From: Brachymonas denitrificans
Lineage (GTDB): Bacteria > Pseudomonadota > Gammaproteobacteria > Burkholderiales > Burkholderiaceae_C
DNA length: 64,000 nucleotides
Direction: 5' to 3'
NCBI RefSeq assembly: GCF_907163135.1
Contig: NZ_CAJQUA010000001.1
Span: 1,255,001-1,319,000 of the forward strand
Every line of letters begins with the position of its first letter. The stretch's first letter is position 1. This document shows, in pieces, positions 8,826 through 54,613 of this stretch. Position numbers and translations under genes: made by a program. Under the pieces are notes generated by a model. It saw nothing but the letters and a program-made list of their open reading frames with translations. It did not search any database and had not been told where the DNA came from.

Positions 8826-9869
8826 TTATTCGTAACCGAACGAGCGCACGCGCGCTTCGTCATCGGCCCAGCCGGAGCGCACCTTGACCCAGAGTTCCAG
8901 GAACACCTTGGCGTCCATCAGCTTTTCCAGTTCCTGGCGCGCTTCCATGCCGATGCGCTTGATGCGCTCGCCCTTGTCGCCGATCACCATGGCCTTGTGG
9001 CCATCGCGCTCGACCACGATGGTGGCGGCAATGCGCACCATGCGCGAGACCTTCTTGCCCGGCTCTTCCTCGTACTTGTCGATCACCACGGTAGAGGTAT
9101 AAGGCAGCTCGTCACCGGTCAGGCGGAACAGCTTCTCGCGCACAATCTCGCTGGCCAGGAACTTTTCGCTCTTGTCGGTCAGCTCGTCGGCGCCATACCA
9201 CCAGTCCTGTTCGGGCAGGTACTTGGCGGTAATTTCCAGCAGGCGCTGGATGTCCTTGGCGTTCTTGGCCGACATCGGCACGAACTCGGCAAAGGGATGG
9301 CGTTGCTGCATATCGCGCAGCCACGGGGCAATTTCGGCACGGCGATGCACCGTATCGAGCTTGTTAGCAATCAGCAGCACCGGAACGTCGGCCGGCAGCA
9401 ACGAAAGCACCTTGGCATCGGCCAGGCTGAAATGCCCTGCCTCCACCACAAACAGCACCACGTGCACATCGGCGACGGCGCCGGTCACGGCCTTGTTGAG
9501 CGACTTGTTCAGGGCATTGCCGTGGCGCGTCTGGAAGCCGGGCGTATCGACGAACACGAACTGGTTCACGCCTTCGCTACGGATGCCGGTGATGCGGTGG
9601 CGCGTGGTCTGTGCCTTGCGCGAAGTGATACTGACCTTCTGGCCCACCAGCGCGTTCAGCAGCGTGGACTTGCCCACGTTGGGCTTGCCGACGATGGCGA
9701 CCAGGCCGCAATGCGGCGCGCCAGCCGCTTCGCTGGATGCAGCGTCAGCCGGCGCCCCGCCGGTGGCCGGTGCACGGCCCAGAATTTTCTCCAGCTGCTT
9801 GGCCACATCAGGAGCCAGCTCGCCTTTGTCATCGGAGCGGGAATCGGGAAAAACGGGATCTTGGTTCAT
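8826..9869 (-). CDS. era: GTPase Era
   Basis: A 347-residue GTPase needed for maturation of 16S rRNA and 30S assembly. The G1 motif GKPNVGKST is at about residue 61, G3 DTPGFQ at about 109, and G4 NKLD near 168; the C-terminal KH RNA-binding domain carries [15 protein letters not shown]. About 50 extra N-terminal residues, rich in Ala and Gly, precede the G domain compared with E. coli Era; this type of tail is common in Burkholderiales. The ATG overlaps the rnc stop (ATGA), so expression is coupled to RNase III. Confidence 0.96.
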
Positions 9870-41940: not shown

Positions 41941-41967
41941 CTGGCAAACGGAATCCCGCAGTACAAT
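41941..41967 (+). promoter_or_regulatory. Host tRNA-Ser promoter, now reading into the element
   Basis: CTGGCA at 41941-41946 and TACAAT at 41962-41967, with a spacer of 15 bp; the -10 ends nine bases before the first base of the tRNA. After insertion of the element this promoter drives the orphan 5' half and, 20 bp later, the complete element-borne tRNA-Ser. Confidence 0.55.
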
Positions 41968-41976
41968 GACAGGTTC

Positions 41977-42015
41977 GGAAGCGTGGGAGAGTGGTTTAAT
42001 CCAGCGGTCTTGAAA
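41977..42015 (+). pseudogene. 5' half of host tRNA-Ser(UGA), split by the integrated element
   Basis: The first 39 bases of a serine tRNA: acceptor strand GGAAGCG, D-arm, left anticodon stem GCGGT and the complete anticodon loop CTTGAAA (anticodon TGA). It then runs into unrelated DNA. The missing right part is at 54565-54613: ACCGC pairs with GCGGT, and CGCTTCC pairs with GGAAGCG. Joined at the CTTGAAA repeat, the two give one intact 88-nt tRNA-Ser with CCA. Confidence 0.93.
42009..42015 (+). other. attL: 7-bp core at the left end of the element
   Basis: CTTGAAA, exactly the anticodon loop of the host tRNA-Ser, repeated as attR at 54558-54564. Left flank is host tRNA (GCGGT), right flank is element DNA (TTTGTTG). 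Confidence 0.88.
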
Positions 42016-42035
42016 TTTGTTGTAGGTAGGTACTA

Positions 42036-42123
42036 GGAAGCTTGGCAGAGTGGTCGATTGCACCGGTCTTGAAAACCGGCATACCGCAAGGTATCCAGGG
42101 TTCGAATCCCTGAGCTTCCGCCA
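42036..42123 (+). tRNA. tRNA-Ser(UGA), complete, carried by the element
   Basis: An 88-nt serine tRNA with encoded CCA. Acceptor GGAAGCT / AGCTTCC, anticodon stem CCGGT / ACCGG around loop CTTGAAA (anticodon TGA, reads UCA), long variable arm with ATACC / GGTAT, and T-loop GTTCGAATC within stem CAGG / CCTG. It differs from the split host tRNA in every arm except the anticodon loop and conserved positions. It begins 20 bp inside the element, in the same direction as the host promoter, so RNase P could release it from the chimeric transcript. Confidence 0.93.
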
Positions 42124-42162
42124 GTTAATACAATCAGTTAGCGTATTTAAGCGCGGCGATAA

Positions 42163-42278
42163 GTAAGTGAGGAAAGCCTTGTAACTGACCACATGCAAGG
42201 GCAAATTCGGTGCCAATCAGCGTCAGGAACAAAACCTAGCGGTAAGCAGATAGTAAGTGCACCGCGAATCCGTAAGTG
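42163..42278 (+). repeat. Three GTAAGTG direct repeats, possible integrase arm sites
   Basis: GTAAGTG at 42163-42169, 42253-42259 and 42272-42278, with GGTAAGC at 42241. Related GGTAAGT and CGTAAGC sequences occur near the right end (54419-54435). Position close to the ends suggests arm-type integrase or excisionase binding; this is inference. Confidence 0.35.
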
Positions 42279-42300
42279 CCGCAGCAAGCGGCGACACAAG

Positions 42301-42322
42301 GCCCCGCTAGTCGGGGCTTTTT
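42301..42322 (+). terminator. Rho-independent terminator downstream of the element tRNA
   Basis: GCCCCG, five-base loop, CGGGGC, then five T. It lies between the element-borne tRNA-Ser and the methyltransferase gene and would end the tRNA transcript, shielding the restriction-modification genes from the host promoter. Confidence 0.8.
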
Positions 42323-42478
42323 GCCGTACGGTAAAGCAGTTTCGTAACAGTGCGCCGCGGTAGTGGCAGGTCAAGGCTCCTATGCCCAACTCGGCAAGAC
42401 AAGTACCATAGCCAGAGCAAGCAACCGAGATCCGAGAAATTGATGAATAAGCAGGAACCGTCGCGGAAGGATGTACCG

Positions 42479-43546
42479 ATGTCACTAGACCAAATTGTCA
42501 ATGGCGATTGCCTTGAGCTACTGCGCAGCTTGGATGATGAAACGGTTGATCTCGTAGTTTCGTCGCCGCCCTACAACATCGGTAAAGAGTACGAGGCAAA
42601 GCGAGAGCTTGAACACTACCTCGACGACCAGCGAGCGGTACTGCGGGAGTGCCACCGCGTGCTCAAGCCCACAGGTTCTATCTTCTGGCAGGTCGGTTCG
42701 TTCTCGCACAAAGGTACGCTCGTACCGCTGGACGTGAAATTCTTCCCTATTCTCGAAGACCTCGGCATGCTGCCGCGCAACCGTATCGTGTGGGTTCGTC
42801 AGCATGGCCTCCATGCCACAAAGAAGTTCTCCGGCCGACACGAAACCATCCTGTGGTTCTCCAAGGGGGAAGAATTTTATTTTGATCTTGACGCTGTGCG
42901 AGTGCCTCAAAAGTGGCAGAACAAGAAATCTCACCGAGGCGACAACAAAGGCGAATTGTCTTGCAATCCAGAGGGCAAGAATCCGGGCGACGTGTGGGTG
43001 TTCCAAAACGTGAAGCATAACCACGAGGAACAGACCATACATCCGGCCCAGTTTCCAGAGGGATTGATCGCTCGTATCGTCCTTGCGACAACGCCAGAGG
43101 GCGGAGTGGTGCTAGATCCTTACATGGGCACCGGAACCACAGCAGTAGTCGCTCGGGATTATGGCAGGCACTATATCGGAGCAGAGCTAGACGAGCGTTA
43201 CCACGGTGTTGCCCTACGCAGGCTCAATGGCGAGCCGGATGAAAGCGGTATGTTCCCCAATCTCAAAACATTGCGAGCATATGTGGCGAGAACAGGAAAA
43301 CCGATTGAAAATTATCGCTTTGACGTTCAAATTGGCAAGGTCGCGTCGGATGGAAGCAAGGCCAAAATTTACCCTGAGGAGTACCACGCGGCAGAGTTAG
43401 TAGATCGCTTGCAATACGAAGCTGATGCTTTTGAGGCGAAAATCAATGGACGCGAAATACCGGAGGCCAAAGACTTGAACGGCAAATCAGCAAAACCTCT
43501 TCGTGAAGTTATCCCGCCCCAGCCGCTCCCACTGTTTGGGGAGTAG
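42479..43546 (+). CDS. Type II DNA methyltransferase, probable N4-cytosine (M.BglII/M.BstYI-like)
   Basis: A 355-residue DNA methyltransferase. The catalytic motif IV VSSPPYNIGKEY is near residue 30, ahead of the SAM-binding motif I DPYMGTGTTAVVA near 215: the beta-class order. SPPY is the form usual in N4-cytosine enzymes. It is convergent with a BglII-like endonuclease gene 27 bp away, whose specificity it should protect (expected GATC core, AGATCT or RGATCY). ATG at 42479 has AAGGA at good distance; ATG at 42443 is the alternative. Base composition is much lower in GC than the chromosome. Confidence 0.9.
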   Translation: MSLDQIVNGDCLELLRSLDDETVDLVVSSPPYNIGKEYEAKRELEHYLDDQRAVLRECHRVLKPTGSIFWQVGSFSHKGTLVPLDVKFFPILEDLGMLPRNRIVWVRQHGLHATKKFSGRHETILWFSKGEEFYFDLDAVRVPQKWQNKKSHRGDNKGELSCNPEGKNPGDVWVFQNVKHNHEEQTIHPAQFPEGLIARIVLATTPEGGVVLDPYMGTGTTAVVARDYGRHYIGAELDERYHGVALRRLNGEPDESGMFPNLKTLRAYVARTGKPIENYRFDVQIGKVASDGSKAKIYPEEYHAAELVDRLQYEADAFEAKINGREIPEAKDLNGKSAKPLREVIPPQPLPLFGE

Positions 43547-43573
43547 CAAGAAAACCGTTGACGTTACTCCGCA

Positions 43574-44227
43574 TCAGACGATCTTGCATCTTCCTGCGCG
43601 GCCTTGCGTGATAGTTACAGCTCTCTGGTAGCGGGCAGCCACAGTCCGAGAGTATCGTGCCGCAGCGTAGTCCGTCCAAGTGGCATTCACCTGCCCCACT
43701 GACTCAAACAAGCCGACGAGCCTGATTGGTACGGTGAAAACCCCATTTTGAGCGAGTGCATTAAGTTGATTCACTGCCTGCTCGTAATACAGGGTACTGT
43801 TCGACGAAGGGAACATTCCTGCCTTGGTGACGATAACTACAAGACCAGTTGGCGCACCATGAAAAACAGTACCTGCGTTGAAAAACAGTTGGGATCGGAT
43901 GGTGTTGTTGAGCAGAAATGGATAGTTCGAGAACTGAATCTCTGCGAGCAACCCATTCTTGCCAAAATCAATGTCGGTCCCAAGGAATGAAAATGCAGGT
44001 GGGATTGGGATTCCGCCGCCCCAGCCGAGTGGAGTAAGTGCCGCAGCGATATACTCGTTAGTTCCAACCGGATCGAATATTGGCGAGCCTTGTTTTCCGT
44101 CTTGATCCGATGCTTTCAAGTGTAGTGGCATGTTCAAAAGAACCTGCTCAAGCTCCTGCCATTGGGCAGCATACGGTCCTGCAATAGCCGCTCCAGCGCC
44201 TTGAAAGTCTGTAATTTGTACCTGCAT
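43574..44227 (-). CDS. BglII/BstYI-family type II restriction endonuclease
   Basis: A 217-residue protein, about the size of BglII. The motif DIDFGKNGLLAEIQFSNYP at about residues 88-106 has Asp, then eight residues, Glu, one residue, Gln: the exact spacing of the BglII catalytic residues (Asp84, Glu93, Gln95), an unusual E-x-Q variant of the PD-(D/E)xK site. The following NYPFLLNN segment also fits that family. Recognition is therefore expected to be AGATCT or RGATCY. It is convergent with its methyltransferase; an XRE remnant lies 179 bp upstream in the same direction. Apparently intact. Confidence 0.8.
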   Translation of the reverse strand: MQVQITDFQGAGAAIAGPYAAQWQELEQVLLNMPLHLKASDQDGKQGSPIFDPVGTNEYIAAALTPLGWGGGIPIPPAFSFLGTDIDFGKNGLLAEIQFSNYPFLLNNTIRSQLFFNAGTVFHGAPTGLVVIVTKAGMFPSSNSTLYYEQAVNQLNALAQNGVFTVPIRLVGLFESVGQVNATWTDYAAARYSRTVAARYQRAVTITQGRAGRCKIV

Positions 44228-44406
44228 TTCTCCCGCCTACCTTCATCAAAAGCATGATGATAGGTCACAGGATGCCAAACGGGAACTTTTACCTTGGTTT
44301 GCCTGAATGCGCATTGCCCATACAGGCCTTGCATAACTGGGCCAACACCCTTGCGGCAACCTAGCGGTGATCGTGGCCCCTGTGGCCCACTACGGGGCTT
44401 ATTGCC

Positions 44407-44495
44407 CTAACTGCCTTGGCTTAAGTACGCATCTTCCGTTTCGCGCACTAAGTCCGCTGCCGAAACACCAAGTGCTTGACCTATCCCGATCATGG
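44407..44495 (-). pseudogene. C-terminal remnant of an XRE-type regulator (controller-protein-like), cut by the IS
   Basis: Reading from the left end of the IS, the minus strand encodes IGIGQALGVSAADLVRE and then EDAYLSQGS to a TAG stop. That is the last helix and tail of a Cro/C1-type HTH protein. Its position upstream of and parallel to the restriction gene is that of a controller (C) protein of restriction-modification systems. The N-terminal part is not recognisable on the other side of the IS, so the insertion probably came with a deletion. Confidence 0.6.
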
Positions 44496-44521
44496 TGAAC
44501 CGCCCCGGGTTTCGAGGAGGC
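44496..44521 (+). repeat. Left inverted repeat of the IS
   Basis: 26 bp, starts TGAACCGCCC; matches the right end base for base in reverse complement. Confidence 0.95.
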
Positions 44522-44545
44522 CCCAACTCTTGAGAAGATGGAGCC

Positions 44546-44869
44546 ATGAACAAGTCCAACAAGTTTTCCCCGGAAGTGCGCGAGCGCGCTGTGCGCATGG
44601 TGCAGGAGCATCGAGCCGAGTACCCTTCGTTGTGGGCAGCTATCGAATCGATTGCGCCGAAGATTGGCTGTGCGCCGCAAACCCTGCACGATTGGGTCAA
44701 GAGAGCCGAGATCGACGCTGGCCTGCGTGCGGGTACCACGACCTCGGATGCGCGACGCATCAAGGAACTGGAGCGCGAAGTCAAGGAGCTGCGCCGTGCC
44801 AATGAGATCCTCAAAACTGCCAGTGCGTTTTTCGCGCAGGCCGAGCTCGACCGCCAGCTCAGGAAGTGA
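44546..44869 (+). CDS. IS3-family transposase OrfA
   Basis: A 107-residue protein with an N-terminal helix-turn-helix ([16 protein letters not shown] ... [15 protein letters not shown]) that recognises the IS ends, and a C-terminal leucine-zipper-like coiled coil ([20 protein letters not shown]). It ends in the overlap GTGA with orfB, which is in the -1 frame, so an OrfAB fusion transposase could be made by frameshifting. Confidence 0.95.
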
Positions 44870-45780
44870 AGGCCTATATCGACCGCCACCGCGATGACTA
44901 CGGGGTCGAGCCCATCTGCCGGGTGCTGCAGATGGCCCCGTCGTGTTACTGGCGCCATGCGGCCCGGCAACGCAACCCGCAACTGCGCAGCGCACGTGCC
45001 CAGCATGACGACCATTTGAAAGCCGACATCCAGCGCGTGTGGCATGCCAACTGGCAGGTCTATGGCGCCGACAAGGTCTGGCTGCAGATGAACCGCGAGG
45101 GCATCCGGGTGGCGCGGTGCACAGTCGAGCGGCTGATGCGTACCATGGGCTTGCAAGGGGCACGCAGAGGCAAGACGATGCGCACCACCACGCCGGACAC
45201 ATCAGTGCCGTGCCCGCTGGACCATGTCAACCGGCTGTTTAAGGCCAGCCGGCCCAACGAGCTGCGGGTGTCGGACTTCACGTACGTCAGCACCTGGCAG
45301 GGCTGGCTGTACGTGGCCTTCGTGGTGGATGTGTACGCCCGGCGCATCGTGGGCTGGCGTGTCAGCCGCAGCATGCACACGGACTTTGTGCTCGATGCGC
45401 TGGAACAGGCCCTGTATGAGCGCCAGCCAGCAGCGCATGCCTTGACGCACCACAGCGACAGGGGCAGCCAGTACGTCAGCATCCGTTACACCGAGCGGCT
45501 GGGCCTGGCAGGTATCCAGCCATCAGTGGGAAGCAAAGGCGACAGCTACGACAACGCGCTGGCCGAGACCATCAACGGGCTATACAAGGCCGAACTGATT
45601 CATCGCCGGGGCCCCTGGAAGACCAGGGAAGCCGTGGAACTGGCGACCCTGCAATGGGTGCACTGGTTCAACCACGTCCGACTGCTCACGCCGATCGGGG
45701 GTATCCCGCCGGCAGAAGCTGAGGCAAACTACTGGAGGCAACTTGCCGACAGCAACACCTTGGCAGAGGTGTCCACTTAA
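44866..45780 (+). CDS. IS3-family transposase OrfB (DDE integrase domain)
   Basis: A 304-residue catalytic part. The HTH_21-type start ([18 protein letters not shown]) is followed by the rve core: first Asp in [10 protein letters not shown], second Asp in [12 protein letters not shown], and Glu in [14 protein letters not shown]. The spacing and the ending [18 protein letters not shown] are typical of IS3. The frame starts at a GTG overlapping the orfA stop; expression probably depends on coupling or -1 frameshift. All catalytic residues are present, so the IS may be active. Confidence 0.95.
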
Positions 45781-45788
45781 ACCAACCA

Positions 45789-45814
45789 GCCTCCTCGAAA
45801 CCCGGGGCGGTTCA
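45789..45814 (-). repeat. Right inverted repeat of the IS
   Basis: 26 bp, perfect complement of the left end. The downstream gene's GAGGAG box starts 13 bp after it. Confidence 0.95.
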
Positions 45815-45838
45815 GATTCTTGTTTTGAGGAGTTTCAG

Positions 45839-46492
45839 ATGTGTGATGTTCTTGTCTGGTCCTTAGATGCAATACGCTGGCCTGAAACGATCAGTGCGCT
45901 TGCTGCTGTGGCCACAGCCATCATTGCCCTCTGCGCTCTGCAAACTTGGAGACACCAAGACAAGGCCAAGGGTAAAGCGGAATTCCTTGATGCGTTAATT
46001 GAGGCTGCCCACACCTACATCGCCGAGATGCCCAAGCCCATCACGCTCTTGGAGATGGCAAAGATCGGTATGCAAGGCCATGCGCCAACTTGGGAAAACG
46101 GAGAGCCGGAAGATATAGCGGTCAAAGGTGCTATTGCCTACATCCAGAAGAACGGGGAGCACGATGGAAAGCGCCTGCTTGAGGTGCTGGAGGCCGTCCA
46201 GCCTTCAGTGGTAAAGCTAAGGTCGCTGGCGGCGAAGGGGCAGGTATTCAAGTTCGATGACTATGCGAAATGCCAGAAGGCGGTTGCGGTGCTTACATGG
46301 CATTTCGACAGAATAGAGGCGTTCATGGCTGTTATCGGGTCGCCAACGTGGAACTGGGAACATCCCGAGGTTCTCAGGCACTTGAAGGACGTAATGGCTA
46401 TCGACCCGGACGAGATTCGCAAGAGCATCCAAGAGAACAACGTCGCCCTCCTTGAATTTGCGAGTCAGGCCTACAAGAAGATTTACGGTTAG
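45839..46492 (+). CDS. Unknown protein with one N-terminal membrane helix
   Basis: A 217-residue protein I do not recognise. A membrane helix lies at about residues 17-36 (TISALAAVATAIIALCALQ), followed by a positively charged stretch and a helical soluble domain with several Trp and acidic residues. GAGGAG precedes the ATG by six bases. It starts 25 bp after the IS end, so the original promoter was probably displaced and the IS may now affect its expression. Position beside the restriction-modification genes makes a defence-related role possible but unproven. Confidence 0.7.
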   Translation: MCDVLVWSLDAIRWPETISALAAVATAIIALCALQTWRHQDKAKGKAEFLDALIEAAHTYIAEMPKPITLLEMAKIGMQGHAPTWENGEPEDIAVKGAIAYIQKNGEHDGKRLLEVLEAVQPSVVKLRSLAAKGQVFKFDDYAKCQKAVAVLTWHFDRIEAFMAVIGSPTWNWEHPEVLRHLKDVMAIDPDEIRKSIQENNVALLEFASQAYKKIYG

Positions 46493-46662
46493 AGCTTACA
46501 GGCCACGCAGTACCCATGCCAATACCAGTACGGCACCGTTGCGGTGATCGCCGCCTGTGCTGGCCTGCTGCCCGGCTGGTGCTGTCTGTTGGTGCCGAAA
46601 ACAAACCCGCCACAGTCGAGTGGCTGGGCGGGCTTGGCTGCATCAGGTTTCAGAGGAATCAC
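46489..46662 (-). CDS. Possible small protein (57 residues)
   Basis: A GTG-initiated frame ending TGTAAGCTCTAA on the minus strand, with a C-terminus WYWHGYCVACKL containing a Cys-x2-Cys pair. It lies 79 bp downstream of the zinc-ribbon gene in the same direction and overlaps the end of the convergent gene by four bases. No family is recognised and the start is weak. Confidence 0.25.
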   Translation of the reverse strand: MIPLKPDAAKPAQPLDCGGFVFGTNRQHQPGSRPAQAAITATVPYWYWHGYCVACKL

Positions 46663-46741
46663 CCTGCAAGCTGCGGAGGTTGGTTTAACGAGGAACTCAC
46701 CGCTATGCCTCGCCTCTGTCTGACAGGGGGTTGGTTGAGGA

Positions 46742-46960
46742 CTACCAGCTTTCTCGGCGCGTGCTGTCCTTGCACGGGCCACACAGGCGGATGCCCGCCA
46801 CGTCACGACTAAAGAACTTGTGGCCGCAGCAGGTACAGGGTCTCCAGCCGACATATCGCACGACGCGGGGCGGGTTGTAATTCCGGTCTAGCACCGGCTC
46901 CCGCCTGTCGTCGCGCTGCGGCCATTGCGCCGGTTCGTTGATGTCGCGCCCCTCGCTCAT
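46742..46960 (-). CDS. Small zinc-ribbon-like protein
   Basis: A 72-residue protein with RPCTCCGHKFF and IRLCGPCKD, two cysteine pairs 13-14 residues apart, the pattern of a small zinc ribbon. The first 35 residues are polar and arginine-rich. Its ATG shares one base with the stop of the upstream gene (TAATG), so it belongs to that operon. Small zinc-finger proteins of this kind are common in phage and satellite operons; the function is unknown. Confidence 0.7.
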   Translation of the reverse strand: MSEGRDINEPAQWPQRDDRREPVLDRNYNPPRVVRYVGWRPCTCCGHKFFSRDVAGIRLCGPCKDSTRRESW

Positions 46961-47463
46961 TACTGCACCTGACGGCGGGCAATCTCTGCCTCTATCTGCG
47001 CCAGCGTGGGCAGCGTGACATATACGGCCTTCGGCTGGTGCAGCCCATACAGTTCTGCCAGCGCACCGAGCGCGGCAATGCGTTCCATTGCGTTGTCGTT
47101 GCGCTCTGGGCAAGCAAGCTGCCAGAGCGTCCAGATGATCCATTGCTTCATGTGCGTGGCGACCTGTTCCCGTGTAGGCTCGATGCCTGCATAGACGTGG
47201 GCTTGCCTGTGGGGGTTGCCACGAATGAATGCGGGGTTCTTCCATGTGGGGTCGCGCCGCTCTGCTTCGGTAAGACATTGGCGCATGTCCTGCACTGATG
47301 CCACGACGCGCTCCCACGTTGCGCCGGGGAACTCGCCATCCTGAGCGACCACATGCCTGTCCCTGCCTTCAATCCAAATGATGAAACGCTTGGCGGGTTC
47401 CGTTGCCTCGGTGTCGTGATGGACGACGATGTTCTGCTTGTGGTCGGTGTAGCTCGTAATCAC
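46960..47463 (-). CDS. Unknown protein of the element operon
   Basis: A 167-residue soluble protein with no recognised domain. It has several Trp residues (KQWIIWTLWQLA) and an alpha-helical C-terminal half ending QIEAEIARRQ. It lies 15 bp after the HTH protein gene and overlaps the zinc-ribbon gene by one base. Translational linkage suggests a joint role with its neighbours, but nothing in the sequence names it. Confidence 0.7.
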   Translation of the reverse strand: MITSYTDHKQNIVVHHDTEATEPAKRFIIWIEGRDRHVVAQDGEFPGATWERVVASVQDMRQCLTEAERRDPTWKNPAFIRGNPHRQAHVYAGIEPTREQVATHMKQWIIWTLWQLACPERNDNAMERIAALGALAELYGLHQPKAVYVTLPTLAQIEAEIARRQVQ

Positions 47464-47478
47464 GGTTCGTTCTCCTTC

Positions 47479-48234
47479 TTATTGGGCGGGTAGTGCGGGC
47501 GGGACGTACAGACCGCTCACGGTGTCGGCTGCGATGTACGGCACGTCCAGCTTCTTGAAAATCGCTTGCAGGGTGCCAATCTCAGCCGGTGTCAGCTTGG
47601 CCCGTACCTCCTCACGGAGCTTGGGACGCTCTACGCGGTCGGGGCTGTTGGGGTTGTGCATCTTCTCCAGCAGGTAGCCATAGAGATGCATTTCGTCCAT
47701 GTCCAGCTTCTGGAGGTCGTAGCCAGATTGATCGTCAGTTGTGACGGTCACTTCCTGCTGGAGCTTGGTTGCGGCATCGAGGCCTAGCAGCTTGGCGCGT
47801 CGTTCCATGACCCGTACTGCTGTGGCAATCGCTGCCAGCTTCGGCGCTTTGTCCTCAAGCACTCGCGTCAGTACGTCGCCGTTTTCGGGGTTGCGTACAG
47901 GCTGGCCGGTGTTGTCCAGCATGGGTGCGCTGACCACACGACCAGCGGACACCAGCGGGTGAAACGCCTTAACGGTCTGCATTGCCTCGGTCAGCAGAAC
48001 ATCACAACGGCCTAGCTCAAGGTTAAGCAGTTCTTCGGCAGGTTCGCGGGTATGAGCGGCAAGTGCATTGCTAATGACACGCGACACGGTGGGCTTGCCT
48101 ACCCCCATGCGTTCGCCGATTTGTTCCAGCGTCAAACCCTCAAGGCGGAGGGAGAGCATTTCAGCCCGTCGCTGTGCATCGCGGACGGCGCGTGCTGATG
48201 TGATGTTTCTGGAATCTTTGCCTGTTCGTGTCAT
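47479..48234 (-). CDS. HTH protein resembling a phage terminase small subunit
   Basis: A 251-residue protein. An N-terminal helix-turn-helix (LEGLTLEQIGERMGVGKPTVSRVISNAL, residues about 29-56) is followed by a helical region rich in Arg and Glu (MERRAKLLGLDAATKLQQE) and an acidic C-terminal half. HTH followed by ERRAKLLGLDA is frequently seen in terminase-small-subunit-like proteins of phages, hence the cautious call; a plain regulator is the alternative. No large terminase is present. ATG at 48234 has GGAG seven bases upstream; a GTG eight codons earlier is less likely. Confidence 0.55.
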   Translation of the reverse strand: MTRTGKDSRNITSARAVRDAQRRAEMLSLRLEGLTLEQIGERMGVGKPTVSRVISNALAAHTREPAEELLNLELGRCDVLLTEAMQTVKAFHPLVSAGRVVSAPMLDNTGQPVRNPENGDVLTRVLEDKAPKLAAIATAVRVMERRAKLLGLDAATKLQQEVTVTTDDQSGYDLQKLDMDEMHLYGYLLEKMHNPNSPDRVERPKLREEVRAKLTPAEIGTLQAIFKKLDVPYIAADTVSGLYVPPALPAQ

Positions 48235-48304
48235 TGGTTGCTCCAACGAGACAGGCACTTATGCGGGAGCGTTGCGCTGCCGCAGGTTACGCCGTTGTGT
48301 TCAG

Positions 48305-48847
48305 TTACATGAAAACCGATACTCGGCTCAGTTCCTTGCTGATGTTGGCAGCGCGGATCTTCGACATGCCCAACGATTCAACAATGCGCCCGACTTGCGC
48401 TTGGTTCTCAATGCTGCTGAAATCTTCCGGGGCCGCACCTGCTGCCTTGGCATAGTGCCGCGCTTCTTTCCAGTCGTTGAAGTCGCTTTCCAGTTCATCA
48501 ACCAGCTTGGCAAGCGTAGCGGCCAGCGGTTCCATGTCTGCAATGCGTTTGCCAGCGCGGGCAAGGATACTATCGGCGGTCCCCTTCAGCTTTGCAGCAG
48601 CGGCGGCGCGTGCCACTTCTTCAGCATCGCCAAGCTCTTGCTCAAGGCTGGCGCGGCGCAGTTCAAGGCGCTGCATCAGTCGGCGCGTCTTTTCAATCTC
48701 AATTTCCAGCTTGTCGGCCTTCGCGTCGTCGCCCTTGGCTGCGGCGCTGTGCCAGTCGGCATGAAGCACGTCATAAGTGCCGCTGGCCTCGGTGTGCTTG
48801 GCAATAACGTCGGCAAGGGCTTCGCGGAGTTTTTCAGGGGTGTTCAT
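48305..48847 (-). CDS. Coiled-coil protein of unknown function
   Basis: A 180-residue almost entirely helical protein. Heptad-like charged helices dominate (KADKLEIEIEKTRRLMQRLELR and the AEEVARAAAAAKLKG region). No catalytic motif is visible. The size and composition recall phage scaffold or accessory proteins, but that is only a resemblance. It lies 22 bp after the ribbon-helix-helix-like gene. Confidence 0.65.
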   Translation of the reverse strand: MNTPEKLREALADVIAKHTEASGTYDVLHADWHSAAAKGDDAKADKLEIEIEKTRRLMQRLELRRASLEQELGDAEEVARAAAAAKLKGTADSILARAGKRIADMEPLAATLAKLVDELESDFNDWKEARHYAKAAGAAPEDFSSIENQAQVGRIVESLGMSKIRAANISKELSRVSVFM

Positions 48848-48869
48848 TTGGATGGTTCCTTGTGGTTGG

Positions 48870-49376
48870 TTACTTCTTGAAATGCTGGTTGTTGGCTTGC
48901 AGCATCGCGGTGACGCGTTCCTTCTGGCTCATCGCAGCAGCGCCACCGTTGGCCTGCACATGGCGGGCGTCCAGTTCTGCGTTGATGATTGCGTTTGGCA
49001 GCGATGCCTTGAACTGCTCAAGTTCTTGATGCTCGGCTACCGTCATTTCAGACGGGCGTGCCGGTTCGGTCGTCGTGGTCATGGGTGATACGTCCTTTCG
49101 TGGGGTTGCTGGTTGGGAAACTGGTTTGACGGTGCGCGGCTTACTGACAGGGTCAGTGGCCGGGTCGTCGCGTCGGAATTGGCTTTGCATTGCTGCTCCT
49201 TTGTGCTGGTTGAGAATCGCTGTCTCGACTACTGCCCTGACGCTTGCACCCTCGCGCTCTGCCAGCGTTGTAAGTGCGGCGTGAGCGTCAGCCGAGATAT
49301 GGGTGTCAAGCCGGAAGCTGCCCGCCGATGCGTGTCGGGCGCGGTAGCTTGCTTGGTGTTGAGCGTTGGTAGCCAT
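48870..49376 (-). CDS. Ribbon-helix-helix-like protein, first gene of the element operon
   Basis: A 168-residue protein. Residues about 15-50 (SFRLDTHISADAHAALTTLA then GASVRAVVETAIL) fit a ribbon-helix-helix DNA-binding domain: a short beta strand and two helices. The middle is low-complexity Pro/Thr/Lys and the last 60 residues are helical and polar. Three palindromes lie 20-77 bp upstream of its ATG, so autoregulation is likely. The frame runs 46 codons further upstream, but those residues would cover the palindromes; MATNAQHQASYR at 49376 is chosen. Confidence 0.65.
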   Translation of the reverse strand: MATNAQHQASYRARHASAGSFRLDTHISADAHAALTTLAEREGASVRAVVETAILNQHKGAAMQSQFRRDDPATDPVSKPRTVKPVSQPATPRKDVSPMTTTTEPARPSEMTVAEHQELEQFKASLPNAIINAELDARHVQANGGAAAMSQKERVTAMLQANNQHFKK

Positions 49377-49395
49377 GAGCGCATGGTAGGACGGT

Positions 49396-49453
49396 CTTAC
49401 CCGGTAAGCACTACATCTAGTGTTTGATTCCGTCAAAGTCACTACGGGTAGTG
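49396..49453. promoter_or_regulatory. Three palindromes in the divergent control region 49377-49687
   Basis: CTTACC-C-GGTAAG (49396-49408), CACTA-CATC-TAGTG (49409-49422) and CACTAC-GG-GTAGTG (49440-49453). They lie just upstream of the ribbon-helix-helix-like gene in a 311-bp gap that also holds the promoter of the small basic protein at 49688. They are probable operators. The rest of the gap shows only a short hairpin GTTGT-CATCA-ACAAC (49657-49671) next to that gene's ribosome-binding site. Confidence 0.5.
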
Positions 49454-49687
49454 TGTCGCGTCGTCCTTTGCCGGGGTGCTGGCGCTGGTGGCGATTCCTG
49501 CGGCTTGCGTGCAATAGGCTTACGCGCTGCCGCCCTCGCTGAATATCAGGAACAGTTCCAATCGCTTACGGGCGCAGTCCGTCAAATAAGGTATTTGCTG
49601 TTCCTTGGTTGCCGGACTAATCGCTTGCCGCTTCTCGGAGATGCATCCTGTAATTGCGTTGTCATCAACAACACACAGGAGAACGAC

Positions 49688-50083
49688 ATGAAGCAATCGA
49701 CAACGACCTACACCAAGCGAGTGAATGCCCGTCGCGCTGGTGTCGCCGCTGGCATCCCGAGCGAACGGGTTGCCCTGACGGTGCATAAGAACGGCGACGA
49801 AGTGCGGTTCGGCTGGAAGGAGAGCGCGGCACCCGTCAATAAGGTGACCACAGCAAGCAAGGTGCCGAAGGTCGAGCAAGAAGAACGCAACGGGGTCAAG
49901 CGTCCGAAGGCTGGCGGTGCGTGCGCTGCTGTGTGGGCATGGCTGGACGCGAACCCGACTGCTACGCTCAAGGAAGCGAAGGCCGCTGCACCTGCCCACG
50001 GCTGGAACGAAAACAATGTGAGCTGTGAGTATTACGCTCGCCGGAAGTTCTTGGGCATCAGTAGAACGACCGCCCCGAACTGA
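49688..50083 (+). CDS. Small basic protein of unknown function
   Basis: A 131-residue protein with a strongly basic, Ala/Lys/Val-rich first two thirds and a C-terminal segment (GACAAVWAWLDANPTATLKE, then NENNVSCEYYARRKFLG) that looks like a compact helical DNA-binding module. CAGGAG lies six bases before the ATG. It is the only plus-strand gene in this half of the element and is followed by a strong terminator. I do not recognise a family. Confidence 0.6.
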   Translation: MKQSTTTYTKRVNARRAGVAAGIPSERVALTVHKNGDEVRFGWKESAAPVNKVTTASKVPKVEQEERNGVKRPKAGGACAAVWAWLDANPTATLKEAKAAAPAHGWNENNVSCEYYARRKFLGISRTTAPN

Positions 50084-50107
50084 TGAACATGACAATTCGA
50101 TACAGCA

Positions 50108-50130
50108 CCCCGCCTCGTGCGGGGTTTTTT
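50108..50130 (+). terminator. Rho-independent terminator after the small basic protein gene
   Basis: CCCCGC, five-base loop, GCGGGG, then six T, 25 bp after the stop. Confidence 0.88.
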
Positions 50131-50258
50131 GTGACCTGCTGCCGCTGGCCGGTACAGGGTGCCACCCTTGCATTGACCACAGCGTGAGCATGGCCTGTGC
50201 CGCCCTGCATCCGGGTTGCGTCACTATGGTTTGCAGGGCTGGCCGTTGCCCCTTGCGG

Positions 50259-50398
50259 GGTGTAGCGGCTGTAGCAGGTGTAGCCGTAGCAGGTTGCCCA
50301 ATGCAGGTACAAAATAAAGAAGATTTAGGACTTTCAGAATCCCCCGTACCGTTTTCGCTACACCTGCTACAGCTACAGTCGCTACACCGGCTACACCT
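50259..50398. repeat. Mirrored GTAGC arrays beside the DUF3987 gene
   Basis: In the 313-bp gap after the terminator there are four GTAGC copies on plus (starts 50262, 50271, 50280, 50286; steps 9, 9, 6) and five GCTAC copies (50357, 50366, 50372, 50381, 50390; steps 9, 6, 9, 9). Read from the minus strand, the second cluster repeats the first, so the two form an imperfect inverted repeat of about 36 bp arms around a 65-bp centre. It could be an origin or iteron-like site, or a very long hairpin. The last copies touch the DUF3987 stop. No gene is seen in this gap. Confidence 0.55.
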
Positions 50399-52160
50399 AT
50401 CGCCGGTACTCATTCGCCACCTCGGGGTTCAAGCAATAGAACTTCTTCGGGCCTTGGGTGACGAGCTTGGCTCGGTTATGGTCTTCCAGCACTGCGAAGG
50501 CTTCGGAGCTTGCCGCGCCCCGTAGTTCGTTCGGCGCGAACTGCTTAACCTCTCGGGTCGGCACCAGCGCCATGCCGCTGTAGAGCTTCCCGATCAGCCA
50601 TTCCTCAAGCCGTTCCGCTTTCCGCAGGCTATCGGGAACCGCCAACTGACGGCAGAAGCGCAGCGCCTCATGCAAGTACCAGCGCATCAACTCCGTCCCG
50701 GCTTCCATGCTTTCCACGCCGATGGATGAAATGCTGTGCGTGTGGTCACAGAAGGCATGAAGGCAGGCCGCGAGGCGTGCGGCGTTGTCGGCGGCTTTGC
50801 TGGCTACGTCCTGAACGTCGTAATACTCGCGCCCCCGGCCCAGTTCTTCCTCTACCTCGTCGTGGAAGCTAACCCAGACTTCCTTCGCTTCGGGTGATAG
50901 GGGCAGGTAGGTAGTTTCCAGCCTGCCATCTGCATCAACCTGAGCCGGAATGTTGAGCAGTTGCGTGACCCTCGCATTGAATGCGGTCAGCGCGGGTTCC
51001 CCCGGCGCTTGCTCCCGGTAGTACCGCGTCCCCTGCGTTGATTCTGGATGTGCAACTAAGAACCGAGCGAAGAAGCCGATGCCCCGCGCCAGTGCCCCCT
51101 GTCTGCTGAGGAACGATTGCAGCGTATCGGGCTGCACCATCAAGCCCATCGTCAGGCGCATCCCCTCGACGTTGATGCTTTGGGTAGAGGTGCGGTCGCG
51201 TCGGAGGTGCCCACCATCCCAACACACGTTCAGGCCTGCCATGTTCCGCATGACCGATTCAGGGTTCATGCCGTGAGCACCGAAGATAATCCCCGCCTCG
51301 TTGCTCAACACAGCAGCCACAGGCCAGCGGGTCAGCGCAACGCCCAACGCTTCGGGCGTGTCGTCCATTCGGAGAATGGTCGGGATGCGCGGTTCAAGCG
51401 GCCTGTTGAGTTCAAGCTGCTTGAGCTGTTCCGCGACGTACTTATCAGGCATCCCGCCTTTCGCGCTCTGCTTGATGGCTTGCTTGTAGCCTTCCTCGGT
51501 GCATTGCCATTCGGTTGAGGCTGCACGATATGCAGCCAGCGCCGGTTTAGCCGCTTCCGCTTGCTGCGCTTCCCATTCGTGAATGGCTTGCGTGAAATAC
51601 TTGTCGGCGCTGCTCTTGCGTTCGCCGCTGACCGCGAGCGTGAGAAAGAACAGTGAGGCAGGGCCACGCAGACTTGCTCCGCGTTCAACGCTGACCAGTC
51701 CTTGCACCGTTGCCGAGACTGCGGAGAGCGCAGACGCTGCAATCAATGCGGTCGGTGCCTGGGTGAATTGCTCAACTTCCTTGATGGCATCGCGGATGAG
51801 GGGCGGCAATACTTCCAGCGGATACGGTAGCGCCTTGATTTCTGCACGCAACGGCACCGGCTTTTCCCAGACGGGTGCGGCTGGTTGCCCGTCACCGCCA
51901 AAGATGCCGGAAAGTAGGTCTTTGGCCTTGTGTAGCTTTCGGGCTGCGGGCTGCACAGCGTCGGCAGGGGCGACGATCGGCACTGCGCCGCCAGTAGGGT
52001 GCTGACCACACTGCAAGGCCTGCTGTGTCGCCTGCAAACTGTCAAAGCCCTGCACGGAGACATTCGCTAAACTAGCTTCTGCTAGTCCATTCAGGGGACG
52101 GTTCTCTTTCAGCGGCAGGGTGTTGCGACCCTCGCCGCTGTTTTCTTGATTACGGTTCAT
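50397..52160 (-). CDS. DUF3987 (YfjI-like) protein, probable replication helicase/primase-type
   Basis: A 587-residue protein of the DUF3987 family found in phages, satellites and integrated plasmids, usually as the main replication gene. A low-complexity N-terminus of about 100 residues precedes the domain; FFLTLAVSGERKSSADKYF near residue 188 is the nucleotide-binding-like turn, and LSNEAGIIFGAHGM plus MGLMVQPDTLQSFL are other family segments. The C-terminus is helical. It follows the AlpA-like gene by 114 bp. ATG at 52160 is chosen; the frame opens 23 codons earlier. Confidence 0.8.
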   Translation of the reverse strand: MNRNQENSGEGRNTLPLKENRPLNGLAEASLANVSVQGFDSLQATQQALQCGQHPTGGAVPIVAPADAVQPAARKLHKAKDLLSGIFGGDGQPAAPVWEKPVPLRAEIKALPYPLEVLPPLIRDAIKEVEQFTQAPTALIAASALSAVSATVQGLVSVERGASLRGPASLFFLTLAVSGERKSSADKYFTQAIHEWEAQQAEAAKPALAAYRAASTEWQCTEEGYKQAIKQSAKGGMPDKYVAEQLKQLELNRPLEPRIPTILRMDDTPEALGVALTRWPVAAVLSNEAGIIFGAHGMNPESVMRNMAGLNVCWDGGHLRRDRTSTQSINVEGMRLTMGLMVQPDTLQSFLSRQGALARGIGFFARFLVAHPESTQGTRYYREQAPGEPALTAFNARVTQLLNIPAQVDADGRLETTYLPLSPEAKEVWVSFHDEVEEELGRGREYYDVQDVASKAADNAARLAACLHAFCDHTHSISSIGVESMEAGTELMRWYLHEALRFCRQLAVPDSLRKAERLEEWLIGKLYSGMALVPTREVKQFAPNELRGAASSEAFAVLEDHNRAKLVTQGPKKFYCLNPEVANEYRR

Positions 52161-52274
52161 GATTTGTCCTGATTCCTTACGCTGGGCTTTTGCGTGCCGT
52201 ACCGACTCGCGCAAGTCCCGCGACTGCATTGGGTTTGATCGTTCAAGGCCATCGTTTTAGATGTACGCTGGTCG

Positions 52275-52523
52275 TTAAACGGTCGCATGCACCGGGCTGC
52301 GGCTGGGCAGCGGGTACTGGCTCGTATTGGTGCAGGTACGCTCTGCCAGCCACGCCTCAAGGACGGATTCGCGGTAGCGAATGGGCGAGCGCAAGGAATG
52401 CGGATTGATCTTGATGAACTCGGGGCCGGTGCCGTAGGTGCGCCAGCGTTCGAGGGTGTTGGGTTTCACGCCGATACGTTCGGCGGCTTCGGCAGTCGTA
52501 AGCAGCTTGGGTGCTGTGGTCAT
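52275..52523 (-). CDS. AlpA/excisionase-like HTH protein
   Basis: An 82-residue protein beginning with a MerR/HTH_17-type DNA-binding domain: LLTTAEAAERIGVKPNTLERW, then the wing PIRYRESVLEAWLAE. Such proteins next to integrases act as excisionase, integrase activator (AlpA) or replication regulator. It lies upstream of the DUF3987 gene and 750 bp from the integrase. Confidence 0.82.
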   Translation of the reverse strand: MTTAPKLLTTAEAAERIGVKPNTLERWRTYGTGPEFIKINPHSLRSPIRYRESVLEAWLAERTCTNTSQYPLPSRSPVHATV

Positions 52524-52729
52524 TTTGGTATGGCTCCAGAACTAACTCGTCTGGTCACCTGCCACTGACGTTACGGCGTGCCGGTTTTTCAACCGGCCCA
52601 AGGGTGTTGCACCCTTGAGGCTATCGGGTGAAGTGCAGAAACTTGTGAGTAACTGCACTGCACTTGCGGCAACTTTACCGGCCTAAGTTTGATGATGCAA
52701 TTTGACGCACGTTACTTTCATCAAACGAA

Positions 52730-52936
52730 TCACCATTGCATCGTCGGGTTTTCGCTTTCGTAGAGTTCTTGCAATCGAACCCACAGGTGCGCCTCGACAA
52801 TGTCTTTCACGATGGCAATTGACAGCATGTCATTAGCATCCCTGAAGTCGCGCAGTGAGTCGCACGAGTCTTCAAATACTTCCTGAATCTGCTCAATGGG
52901 CAGAAAGCGTATCCTTTCAAAGTGGCTGGTTGGCAT
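52730..52936 (-). CDS. Small acidic protein of unknown function
   Basis: A 68-residue protein, mostly helical and acidic, with IRFLPIEQIQEVFEDSCDSL and a C-terminal AHLWVRLQELYESE. No family recognised. It is between the integrase and AlpA-like genes on the same strand. The frame opens 22 codons earlier, but ATG at 52936 is the more compact start. The gap 52524-52729 after it contains two hairpins (52580-52597 and 52600-52616) without T-tracts. Confidence 0.55.
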   Translation of the reverse strand: MPTSHFERIRFLPIEQIQEVFEDSCDSLRDFRDANDMLSIAIVKDIVEAHLWVRLQELYESENPTMQW

Positions 52937-53135
52937 GTGGCCTCCGTATCGGTTGCCCACCCGCCGCGCAAACAAAAAGGCCGGCTGACGGTGGAGCGTC
53001 AATGCCGGCCTGCTGGTGCAGACTATTCAGGACGTGCAATCCGCACGTCAGGCGATCTGGTGAATCGAACTTTACGCCTCTGTCTGCGCGACCGCAAATC
53101 GGGCGCGGAATGAAATAGCTATCTCGTAAGTATGG

Positions 53136-54398
53136 TTATTCGACTGGCTCCGCTTCGGGCTGCTGCGCTGCCTCGGCTTGCGCCTTAACGGCCACAGCCT
53201 GCGCCTCGATCCAGTCAGCGATGCGCTGTGCTTCCGGTCGCAAGTATTGAAGCTGCTGCGTTTCGAGGTAGTGACGCTCGGTCACGGTCTTGGGTACATG
53301 GTTCGTCAGCAATTCCACCCTGTAGAGATCGAGGCGGCAATTCGCAAGTCCTATCGTCGTGAAGGTGCGCCTCAAATCATGCGGCGATAGGTGGAGGCCT
53401 GCAACCTCGCTGACCTTGTTCATGGTGTCGCGGGGGTCGCGGATATGGCCTGCCTTGCCCCAACTGGTGAAAACGAAGTCACTACCCTTGACGCGCTGCC
53501 GGGTCTTGAGCAGTTCCAATGCTTGCGATGACAGGGGCATCCAGACGGGATTTCTATTTTTCGGGTCGGGTATGTGCCACCAGCCCTCGTCGAGATTTAC
53601 CCTGTCCCATGTCAGCGCGGACGCTTCGCCAATGCGTGCGCCGGTCAGCATCAGGAACATGACAAGGTCAATGCTTGCAAGGGTGTCGCGGTTGTAGGCG
53701 ACTTCGCGCCACTGCTGGAGTGCTGACCACACCGCGCCGACCTTGCTATCGGGTATGCGGGTCGTCTTGGCCTTGATCGGTGCCCATTTCTTGTGCAGCA
53801 CTTCGACAGGGTTGTCCTTGATGATCGCTGTACCGTCCGGCCTGCGGTATTCCCGAATCGCGTAATTGAACAGGGCGCGAAGCACGCTGAATCCCTGATT
53901 GGCTTGCGCTGGTGCGGGGCCGTCGCCTCGCAGGCCGTGATTCTTAATCTCGTTGAACCGCTTTGTGACCGCCTCGCGGGTAATGCTCGCCATAGGCTTC
54001 TTGAGCCATGCCTCAAAGGTTGTGGTCACATGGCGCTCGATCTCGGCCTTGCTGCTGTCCTTTAGCGGGCGGTCGCGCTTGTATGCGTCCGCTACGTCGC
54101 GCAGGCTCACTGTCTCGGCTGCTCGTTCCTTGGCAACGGTTCGCGGGTCAATCCCCTGCCTCATGCTCCGCAGGTGTTCGCGTGCAACCTCGCGGGCTTG
54201 GTCGGCGGTGAATACACCATGCGGCCCGATGCTGATACGGGCCTCCTTGCCATTGACGCGCCCCTGCACGATGTAGGTGATCTTGCCTGCGGGAGTGACG
54301 CGGATGCCGAAGCCGCTCACCTCGCTATCCCAATGCAGGTCATACCCGCTTGCCGGGGGTGTAATTTTGTCGATGTAGGTCTTTGTGAGCTTTGCCAT
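53136..54398 (-). CDS. int: Tyrosine-type site-specific integrase
   Basis: A 420-residue integrase with an N-terminal DUF4102 arm-binding domain (KLTKTYIDKITPPASGYDLHWD), a core-binding domain (about residues 95-190) and a catalytic domain. The catalytic Arg is in LTGARIGEASALTW, the His-x-x-Arg in SPHDLRRTF, a later His or Asn in LLTNHVPKTV and the nucleophile Tyr in ERHYLETQQ. It starts 160 bp from attR and is transcribed away from it, as expected. It is the natural catalyst for insertion in the tRNA-Ser anticodon loop. Confidence 0.95.
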   Translation of the reverse strand: MAKLTKTYIDKITPPASGYDLHWDSEVSGFGIRVTPAGKITYIVQGRVNGKEARISIGPHGVFTADQAREVAREHLRSMRQGIDPRTVAKERAAETVSLRDVADAYKRDRPLKDSSKAEIERHVTTTFEAWLKKPMASITREAVTKRFNEIKNHGLRGDGPAPAQANQGFSVLRALFNYAIREYRRPDGTAIIKDNPVEVLHKKWAPIKAKTTRIPDSKVGAVWSALQQWREVAYNRDTLASIDLVMFLMLTGARIGEASALTWDRVNLDEGWWHIPDPKNRNPVWMPLSSQALELLKTRQRVKGSDFVFTSWGKAGHIRDPRDTMNKVSEVAGLHLSPHDLRRTFTTIGLANCRLDLYRVELLTNHVPKTVTERHYLETQQLQYLRPEAQRIADWIEAQAVAVKAQAEAAQQPEAEPVE

Positions 54399-54416
54399 TT
54401 TTGTTCTCCGGAAGGT

Positions 54417-54430
54417 GCGGTAAGTACCGC
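54417..54430. promoter_or_regulatory. Palindrome upstream of int
   Basis: GCGGTA-AG-TACCGC, 19 bp before the integrase ATG, overlapping the likely promoter. A related CGTAAGC lies directly beside it. Possible operator for AlpA-like protein or integrase arm site. Confidence 0.4.
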
Positions 54431-54557
54431 GTAAGCAGCTCCGGTAAAGTTATGACAAGCTACACAAAATGTAAATCCGGCGCAAATGCTTGTTTTCATG
54501 GAACTCGTAAAACTTACGCAAGAGGCGCACAGTAGCGTAAAATCAGCCTACGAGTTA

Positions 54558-54564
54558 CTTGAAA
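54558..54564 (+). other. attR: 7-bp core at the right end of the element
   Basis: CTTGAAA; element DNA (CGAGTTA) on the left and host tRNA (ACCGCC) on the right. Identical to attL and to the loop of the element-borne tRNA. Confidence 0.88.
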
Positions 54565-54613
54565 ACCGCCGACCAGCAATGGTCCGTGAGTTCGAATCTC
54601 ACCGCTTCCGCCA
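54558..54613 (+). pseudogene. 3' part of host tRNA-Ser(UGA), stranded at the right end
   Basis: Anticodon loop CTTGAAA, right anticodon stem ACCGC, variable arm GACC-AGCAAT-GGTC, T-arm GTGAG-TTCGAAT-CTCAC, acceptor CGCTTCC and GCCA. It completes the 5' half at 41977-42015. No tRNA promoter or 5' half precedes it here, so by itself it cannot give a tRNA. Excision of the element would restore the gene. Confidence 0.93.

Follow-up and report, generated by a model that had tools for sequence, protein, structure and literature searches.

We analyzed a mobile element that is integrated in a serine tRNA gene of Brachymonas denitrificans. The stretch examined (here called the window; 64,000 nucleotides) comprises bases 1255001 to 1319000 of the finished 2.71-Mb chromosome, and the genome consists of this 2.71-Mb contig and a further 43 kb (completeness, 100). 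Sampled genomes are designated by G numbers (the window genome is G000 and a congener is G027), and related loci or elements are designated by L numbers. The host tRNA-Ser(UGA) gene lies in two pieces, an orphan 5′ half (positions 41977 to 42015, plus strand) and an orphan 3′ half (54558 to 54613, plus strand; also recovered by a pattern scan). The two halves base-pair with each other at all seven positions of the acceptor stem and all five of the anticodon stem. The 5′ half ends with the attL core CTTGAAA (42009 to 42015, plus strand) and the 3′ half begins with the attR core of the same sequence (54558 to 54564); this 7-bp core is the anticodon loop of the host tRNA, and the two cores are 12,549 bp apart. 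A complete tRNA-Ser(UGA) gene (42036 to 42123, plus strand) follows the left core after a gap of exactly 20 bp, in the direction of the host gene. It was the one tRNA called in the window by ARAGORN (as tRNA-Ser[TGA]), scored 58.7 bits with the Rfam tRNA model, and shared 77% identity with the split host gene. A likely −10 box of the host tRNA promoter (TACAAT; 41961 to 41966, plus strand) is located 10 bp 5′ of the orphan half and is conserved in the congener. The element also encodes a tyrosine integrase of 420 amino acids near its right end (53136 to 54398, minus strand; PF00589, 5e-17; PF13356).

The only sequence common to both junctions is the 7-bp core, so neither junction rebuilds the host tRNA gene. 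The left core is directly followed by TTTGTTGTAGGTAGG, which does not correspond to a tRNA 3′ half, and the orphan 5′ half fits the 3′ half of the element tRNA less well than its own (six of seven acceptor pairs and four of five anticodon pairs). In the congener G027, the same locus is uninterrupted (88% identity over 236 bp across the junction) and contains an intact tRNA gene; CCCGCAGTACAATG, upstream of the orphan half in the window, is identical there. An initial annotation had proposed that an element inserted in the anticodon loop had separated perfectly pairing halves by about 12.5 kb, left the host gene unrestored next to the core, and brought a complete, clearly different tRNA-Ser(UGA) 20 bp inside the left junction. 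The junction sequences, the empty site in the congener, and the tRNA predictions agree with each of these points. Assembly error at the junctions, which would have undone that proposal, and chance are both excluded by sequence comparison because the same arrangement was seen in ten other genomes.

The element tRNA is the sole tRNA-Ser(UGA) that we detected in this genome. A whole-genome Rfam scan returned 47 tRNAs, among which the remaining serine tRNAs had the anticodons CGA, GGA, and GCU (anticodons assigned by ARAGORN). An independent pattern scan of the genome (CTTGAAA...GTTCGAATC; CTTGAAA followed by a T arm) had no match besides the element tRNA and the orphan 3′ half. The search for another copy called for in the initial annotation therefore yielded no second complete tRNA-Ser(UGA) in the finished genome by either scan. 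The UCA codon requires a UGA anticodon. Comparison of ten element tRNAs showed standard base pairs at 22 of 22 stem positions in every sequence, with 14 of the 22 pairs changed on both sides, and slid stems used as a control were 33 to 51% paired; by this covariation, the element tRNA is under selection. Identity between an element tRNA and the gene that it replaces was usually 74 to 79%, with closer pairs in L063 (93%), L071 (94%), and L081 (96%).

Relatives of the integrase (60 to 94% identity) were found in Betaproteobacteria, Pseudomonadales, and Methylophilaceae. Eleven elements, including that of the window, were found in diverse proteobacterial hosts with an orphan host 5′ half followed by a complete tRNA-Ser(UGA). 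Both halves could be read in nine of them, and the halves paired perfectly in all nine. Cultured carriers are Comamonas kerstersii and Dechloromonas agitata. The acceptor and anticodon stems of the host genes vary among the targets of these elements, which suggests that the loop is nearly all that the integrase requires. The integrase genes of L067 and L068, for example, differ at only 56 of 1,245 bases, and the host tRNAs hit are different. In L071, the integrase is broken and the tRNA is kept. Two relatives show conventional restoration, with a complete tRNA identical to the displaced 3′ half (L064/L085, 73% integrase identity; L078, 78%), and L073 and L075, which are more distant, also follow the conventional pattern, at tRNA-Met. 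Conventional members are scattered among the tRNA-carrying ones in the integrase tree, in which the deep forks are poorly supported for ordering. As judged from these comparisons, the arrangement is a property of the integrase family and not of one locus.

Several further loci extend this picture. The L079 element (tRNA at L079:8265-8354) has an integrase gene with 28 differences in 1,245 bases from that of L068, and its core is preceded by TTCAGCGATAGACTTGAAAAC and not by a tRNA 5′ half. This suggests a secondary integration site outside tRNA genes; as the contig stops at the integrase, only one junction is visible. In L063 (genome G704, of the window's genus), the resident tRNA-Ser(UGA) that was split lies at another locus, beside a recA-looking gene, and is 100% identical to the tRNA of the L069 element from Zoogloea. 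This resident tRNA may itself be an earlier foreign tRNA. Two IMG/VR contigs (L102:526-1834 and L094:205-1498) have a different tyrosine integrase, then CTTGAAA, and a complete tRNA-Ser(UGA) 10 bp further on, and may represent the same strategy arisen independently.

We searched 401 genomes from the same bacterial family with two pattern scans for the signature of an orphan core plus a complete tRNA, which was present in 10 genomes. The family integrase was present in three of these, namely, the window genome, G704 (at coordinates matching the genome of L063), and G112 (at coordinates matching that of L081). Five others (G050, G583, G764, G024, and G047) kept the left arm typical of the family together with the tRNA, and the family integrase was not found within roughly 19 kb downstream. 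About 2% of the 401 sampled genomes bear the signature of this integrase family. In the complete genome G050, the tRNA is 100% identical to that of the L068 element, no host 3′ half was found, and the other serine tRNAs have the anticodons GCU, GGA, and CGA, leaving the foreign tRNA as the sole tRNA-Ser(UGA). The G583 locus matches the host flanks of L081, and about 3.1 kb remains compared with the 15.8-kb element in L081. In G047, the tRNA is still flanked by both halves, which are separated by 1.26 kb and whose pairing has decayed to 4 of 7. The orphan half has largely decayed in G764, which belongs to the window's genus, and in G024. A pattern scan of G583, G764 (a genome that is 83% complete), G024, and G050 found no second tRNA-Ser(UGA). 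In G024, the foreign origin of the tRNA rests on the flanking arm, because the tRNA itself is close to native-type tRNAs (98.9%). Among these relatives, the elements appear to have decayed over time while the foreign tRNA stayed as the only copy.

The two remaining genomes, G037 and G640, matched the signature but were rejected as family members because they contain other element types; their halves pair 7 of 7 and 5 of 5 across contigs. The other element type in G037 splits tRNA-Ser(UGA) at the same loop (L134 and L136; G037:C24, about 9059 to 9315, and G037:C4:469). Its arm repeats (TTGCAAAG) and its integrase are different, and a complete tRNA-Ser(UGA) follows the orphan half; the same element contig carries part of a tyrosine integrase that belongs to another group. 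The G037 case suggests convergence.

The position of the tRNA was compared with that of the presumed integrase binding sites. Most elements have a single copy of a paired motif (T[AT]AG[CT], six bases, T[AT]AG[CT]) close to each end, and internal copies are almost absent; the terminal copies are presumed to be integrase arm sites. The left copy in the window is TAAGCAGATAGTAAGT (42243 to 42258, plus strand), and the right copy is TAAGTACCGCGTAAGC (54421 to 54436, plus strand); both were recognized by motif comparison. Where found, the right copy lies at −144 from the core (−143 in L078). Exceptions were L081, which has neither copy, and L085 and L071, which have no right copy. In L065 and the clade of the window element, the tRNA extends from +16 or +27 to about +115, and the left pair is found at +213 to +236. 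The tRNA thus lies inside the presumed attP in these elements, because the left arm motif lies beyond it. The L067-L069 clade differs in that the tRNA begins at +124 to +131, beyond the left pair at +95, and falls just outside attP. These two placements make the carriage of a whole tRNA compatible with two origins.

On this evidence, we consider it very probable that the integrase crosses over in the CTTGAAA loop and destroys the host gene, and that the element pays for this with a whole tRNA-Ser(UGA) in its own attP, likely transcribed from the host promoter. The tRNA, carried between the core and the presumed left arm site, lands upon integration a few bases behind the orphan 5′ half and in the orientation of the host gene. 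Under this model, its transcription would most likely start at the host tRNA promoter and run across the orphan half, with RNase P then freeing the tRNA. The comparison of targets supports the usability of hosts with different tRNA stems, since restoration would no longer depend on a sequence match. Loss of the element should also be difficult, since the host gene would be rebuilt by precise excision but a deletion that took the tRNA should be lethal. The initial annotation held that the element had taken over a probable essential function. The takeover is supported by the decayed relatives with a sole foreign tRNA; the element tRNA is probably also essential in the strain studied here.

Several observations weigh against this interpretation. 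The Rfam scan of the genome was not exhaustive, as tRNA-Ile(GAU) and tRNA-Ala(UGC) were missing from the listed genes. UCA is rare among the host codons sampled (2 of 1,520; 13 of 2,059 in element genes). The predicted fold of the orphan half plus the tRNA favors a non-cloverleaf structure by 7.4 kcal/mol in the window, and the cloverleaf penalty predicted for the chimeric transcripts of other elements is 0 to 5.4 kcal/mol. A consensus promoter scan called nothing upstream of the orphan half, and IMG/VR yielded no attP junction of the kind expected from an excised circle; matches to the signature pattern there were mostly chance occurrences of CTTGAAA upstream of phage tRNAs. Misfolding of this kind, as predicted, is a mild argument against use of the host promoter; the penalty may be smaller if the RNA folds while it is being transcribed. 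Regarding the two missing tRNAs, tRNA-Ile(GAU) and tRNA-Ala(UGC) usually sit in rRNA operons, and both were probably masked or missed in the list rather than absent. A consensus terminator scan also flagged nothing; about 175 bp after the element tRNA, a GC-rich hairpin (GGCCCCGCTAGTCGGGGC; 42297 to 42325) followed by TTTTT has a terminator-like appearance.

The alternative that survives best concerns only the source of the transcript. The replacement could be real and the element tRNA could be expressed from its own or another element promoter, with no role for the host promoter. The potential misfolding of the chimeric transcript would fit this view, as would the published phage tRNA that has its own promoter (PMC10865867) and the gap of 117 to 124 bp between core and tRNA in L067-L069, which is sufficient for a promoter. 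However, the gap is 9 to 20 bp in the window and in most members, so a separate promoter upstream of the tRNA would not fit without extending into the orphan half, and the host −10 box is conserved upstream. We regard expression from an element promoter as rather unlikely. It is far less likely that the tRNA is unneeded, that is, that another tRNA decodes UCA or that tRNA-Ser(UGA) is dispensable in this strain. The rarity of UCA in the sampled host genes would be in line with dispensability; against it, the scans found no further UGA anticodon among the serine tRNAs, the stems are perfect across the elements, and the tRNA outlasts element decay.

A conventional island, in which an identical 3′ part restores the host gene and the extra tRNA is incidental cargo, would follow the rule for tRNA islands (PMC4383910) and the behavior of the relatives L064/L085 and L078. 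For the window, this explanation is highly improbable and was rejected on the junction sequence described above, namely, the lack of a tRNA 3′ half after the left core and the imperfect fit between the orphan half and the element tRNA. In L081, the element and host tRNAs are 96% alike, and such a comparison of halves carries no information there. Tandem host genes, with the element in the first and the second left complete, would account for two tRNA-Ser sequences close together but can be dismissed on gene order, because a downstream host copy would sit beyond the 3′ half and not inside the left junction, the congener has a single tRNA at the locus, and the same order recurs in ten other genomes.

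The remaining genes of the element point to a small satellite-like entity. Behind the tRNA lies a cargo of a type II DNA methyltransferase (42443 to 43546, plus strand; PF01555, 4.7e-62; PADLOC MTase_II, 2.2e-121) and a BglII-like type II restriction endonuclease (43574 to 44227, minus strand; PADLOC REase_II, 3.2e-66; weak PF09195). These are followed by nested transposase genes of the IS3 type (44546 to 45780, plus strand; PF01527 and rve domains), and this nested insertion sequence carries an ALIL frameshift pseudoknot (RF01497). Next come a helix-turn-helix protein that recurs in the family (47479 to 48258, minus strand; PF13384, phrog_645; common to six elements), a DUF3987 primase/helicase-like replication protein (50397 to 52229, minus strand; PF13148, 6.3e-91; phrog_2373 helicase), and an excisionase/AlpA-like small DNA-binding protein (52275 to 52523, minus strand; phrog_66, 3.4e-11). 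In the integrase, the residues R255, K280, H340, R343, H367, and Y377 are invariant in 15 relatives and are read as the catalytic set. The cargo of relatives comprises a methyltransferase with ORC-CDC6-like and PRTase-CE proteins, DarT with NADAR, and another restriction-modification pair; the DarT-like toxin and NADAR antitoxin were seen in the conventional relative L085 from Pseudomonas oryzihabitans (L085:4584-6028).

Phage structural genes were not recognized among the main window open reading frames scanned, and the combination of structural and lysis genes expected of a temperate phage was accordingly not seen. A weak terminase-small-subunit-like match was present in the element (phrog_57, 5.6e-4), and the conventional relative L078 has a tape-measure domain. 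The gene content is of the satellite type, a small element with integrase, excisionase, and replication genes and without complete virion genes. The element resembles phage satellites such as P4-like elements and PICI in its size class (8 to 16 kb), terminal integrase, excisionase-like and primase/helicase genes, and variable defense cargo. The helper dependence, packaging, and capsid-remodeling genes generally known from satellites are not part of this resemblance. Relatives of the integrase were not found in plasmids at E values of ≤1e-60 or in phage records at ≤1e-50; in 399 genomes of the order, the only match at ≤1e-100 was the window itself.

The principle has been described in other systems. 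tRNA-dependent lysogeny was reported in 2024 for mycobacteriophages and other actinophages (Fionnbharth, cluster L, and Gaia), and the loss of the mycobacteriophage tRNA led to clear plaques, an experimental precedent (PMC10865867). The window shares with that system an attB in the anticodon loop of a host tRNA gene, a tyrosine integrase, a cognate tRNA brought by the incoming element, a short core (about 8 to 17 bp in the actinophages) that does not reconstruct the tRNA at either junction, and the existence of conventional relatives. Unlike the window element, the actinobacterial carriers are full temperate phages at tRNA-Lys, Ile2, or Leu, and the Fionnbharth tRNA is separate from attP, overlaps a gene while being encoded on the opposite strand, and has a promoter of its own (PMC10865867). 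The element described here is small and proteobacterial, uses tRNA-Ser(UGA) and a 7-bp core, and, with its relatives, carries the tRNA inside or directly beside attP. A proteobacterial precedent for the replacement of an inactivated host tRNA is provided by a Sinorhizobium prophage that inactivates the host tRNA-Leu(UAG) and supplies its own tRNA of that isotype, which shares 80.6% identity with the host tRNA; the passages concerned deal with intact prophages, another isotype, and two strains and do not describe attP position or decay (PMC11476347). The Lactobacillus johnsonii prophage Lj965, as cited in PMC10865867, likewise encodes the cognate tRNA for a gene not rebuilt at a junction, but it is a prophage of a Firmicute.

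Conventional islands also use tyrosine integrases, and crossover in the anticodon loop is among their usual subsites; they restore the gene through an identical fragment in attP, and Islander assumes a restored tRNA gene (PMC4383910). That fragment is missing in the window and present in L064/L085 and L078. The initial annotation, which stressed a departure from the usual restoration, was right about the locus, but the strategy is not unprecedented (PMC10865867, PMC11476347). We found no description of a tRNA built into attP, of small nonphage carriers, or of fossil loci in the literature covered, which included few subscription papers, so that their absence from the literature is unproven. 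With the principle already published, what is new here is the small element without recognized structural genes, the tRNA in attP, the use of tRNA-Ser(UGA), and the fossils of permanent gene replacement.

On balance, we lean slightly toward a broader interpretation, in which attP would act as a combined cassette for integration and essential-gene replacement, with a captured host promoter, freedom from sequence matching, and resistance to loss, and would be a means by which proteobacteria recurrently and permanently swap an essential tRNA gene for one of foreign origin, with a half-gene scar left behind. The findings point to integration vectors that would need no matching tRNA 3′ half, and scans that require a restored tRNA may miss this class of islands. 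The fossils can be counted by a simple signature, an orphan 5′ half followed by a complete tRNA of the same isotype. tRNA-dependent integration is extended from phages to small, satellite-like proteobacterial elements in which the tRNA is built into attP, and these elements offer a concrete mechanism for the horizontal replacement of essential tRNA genes.

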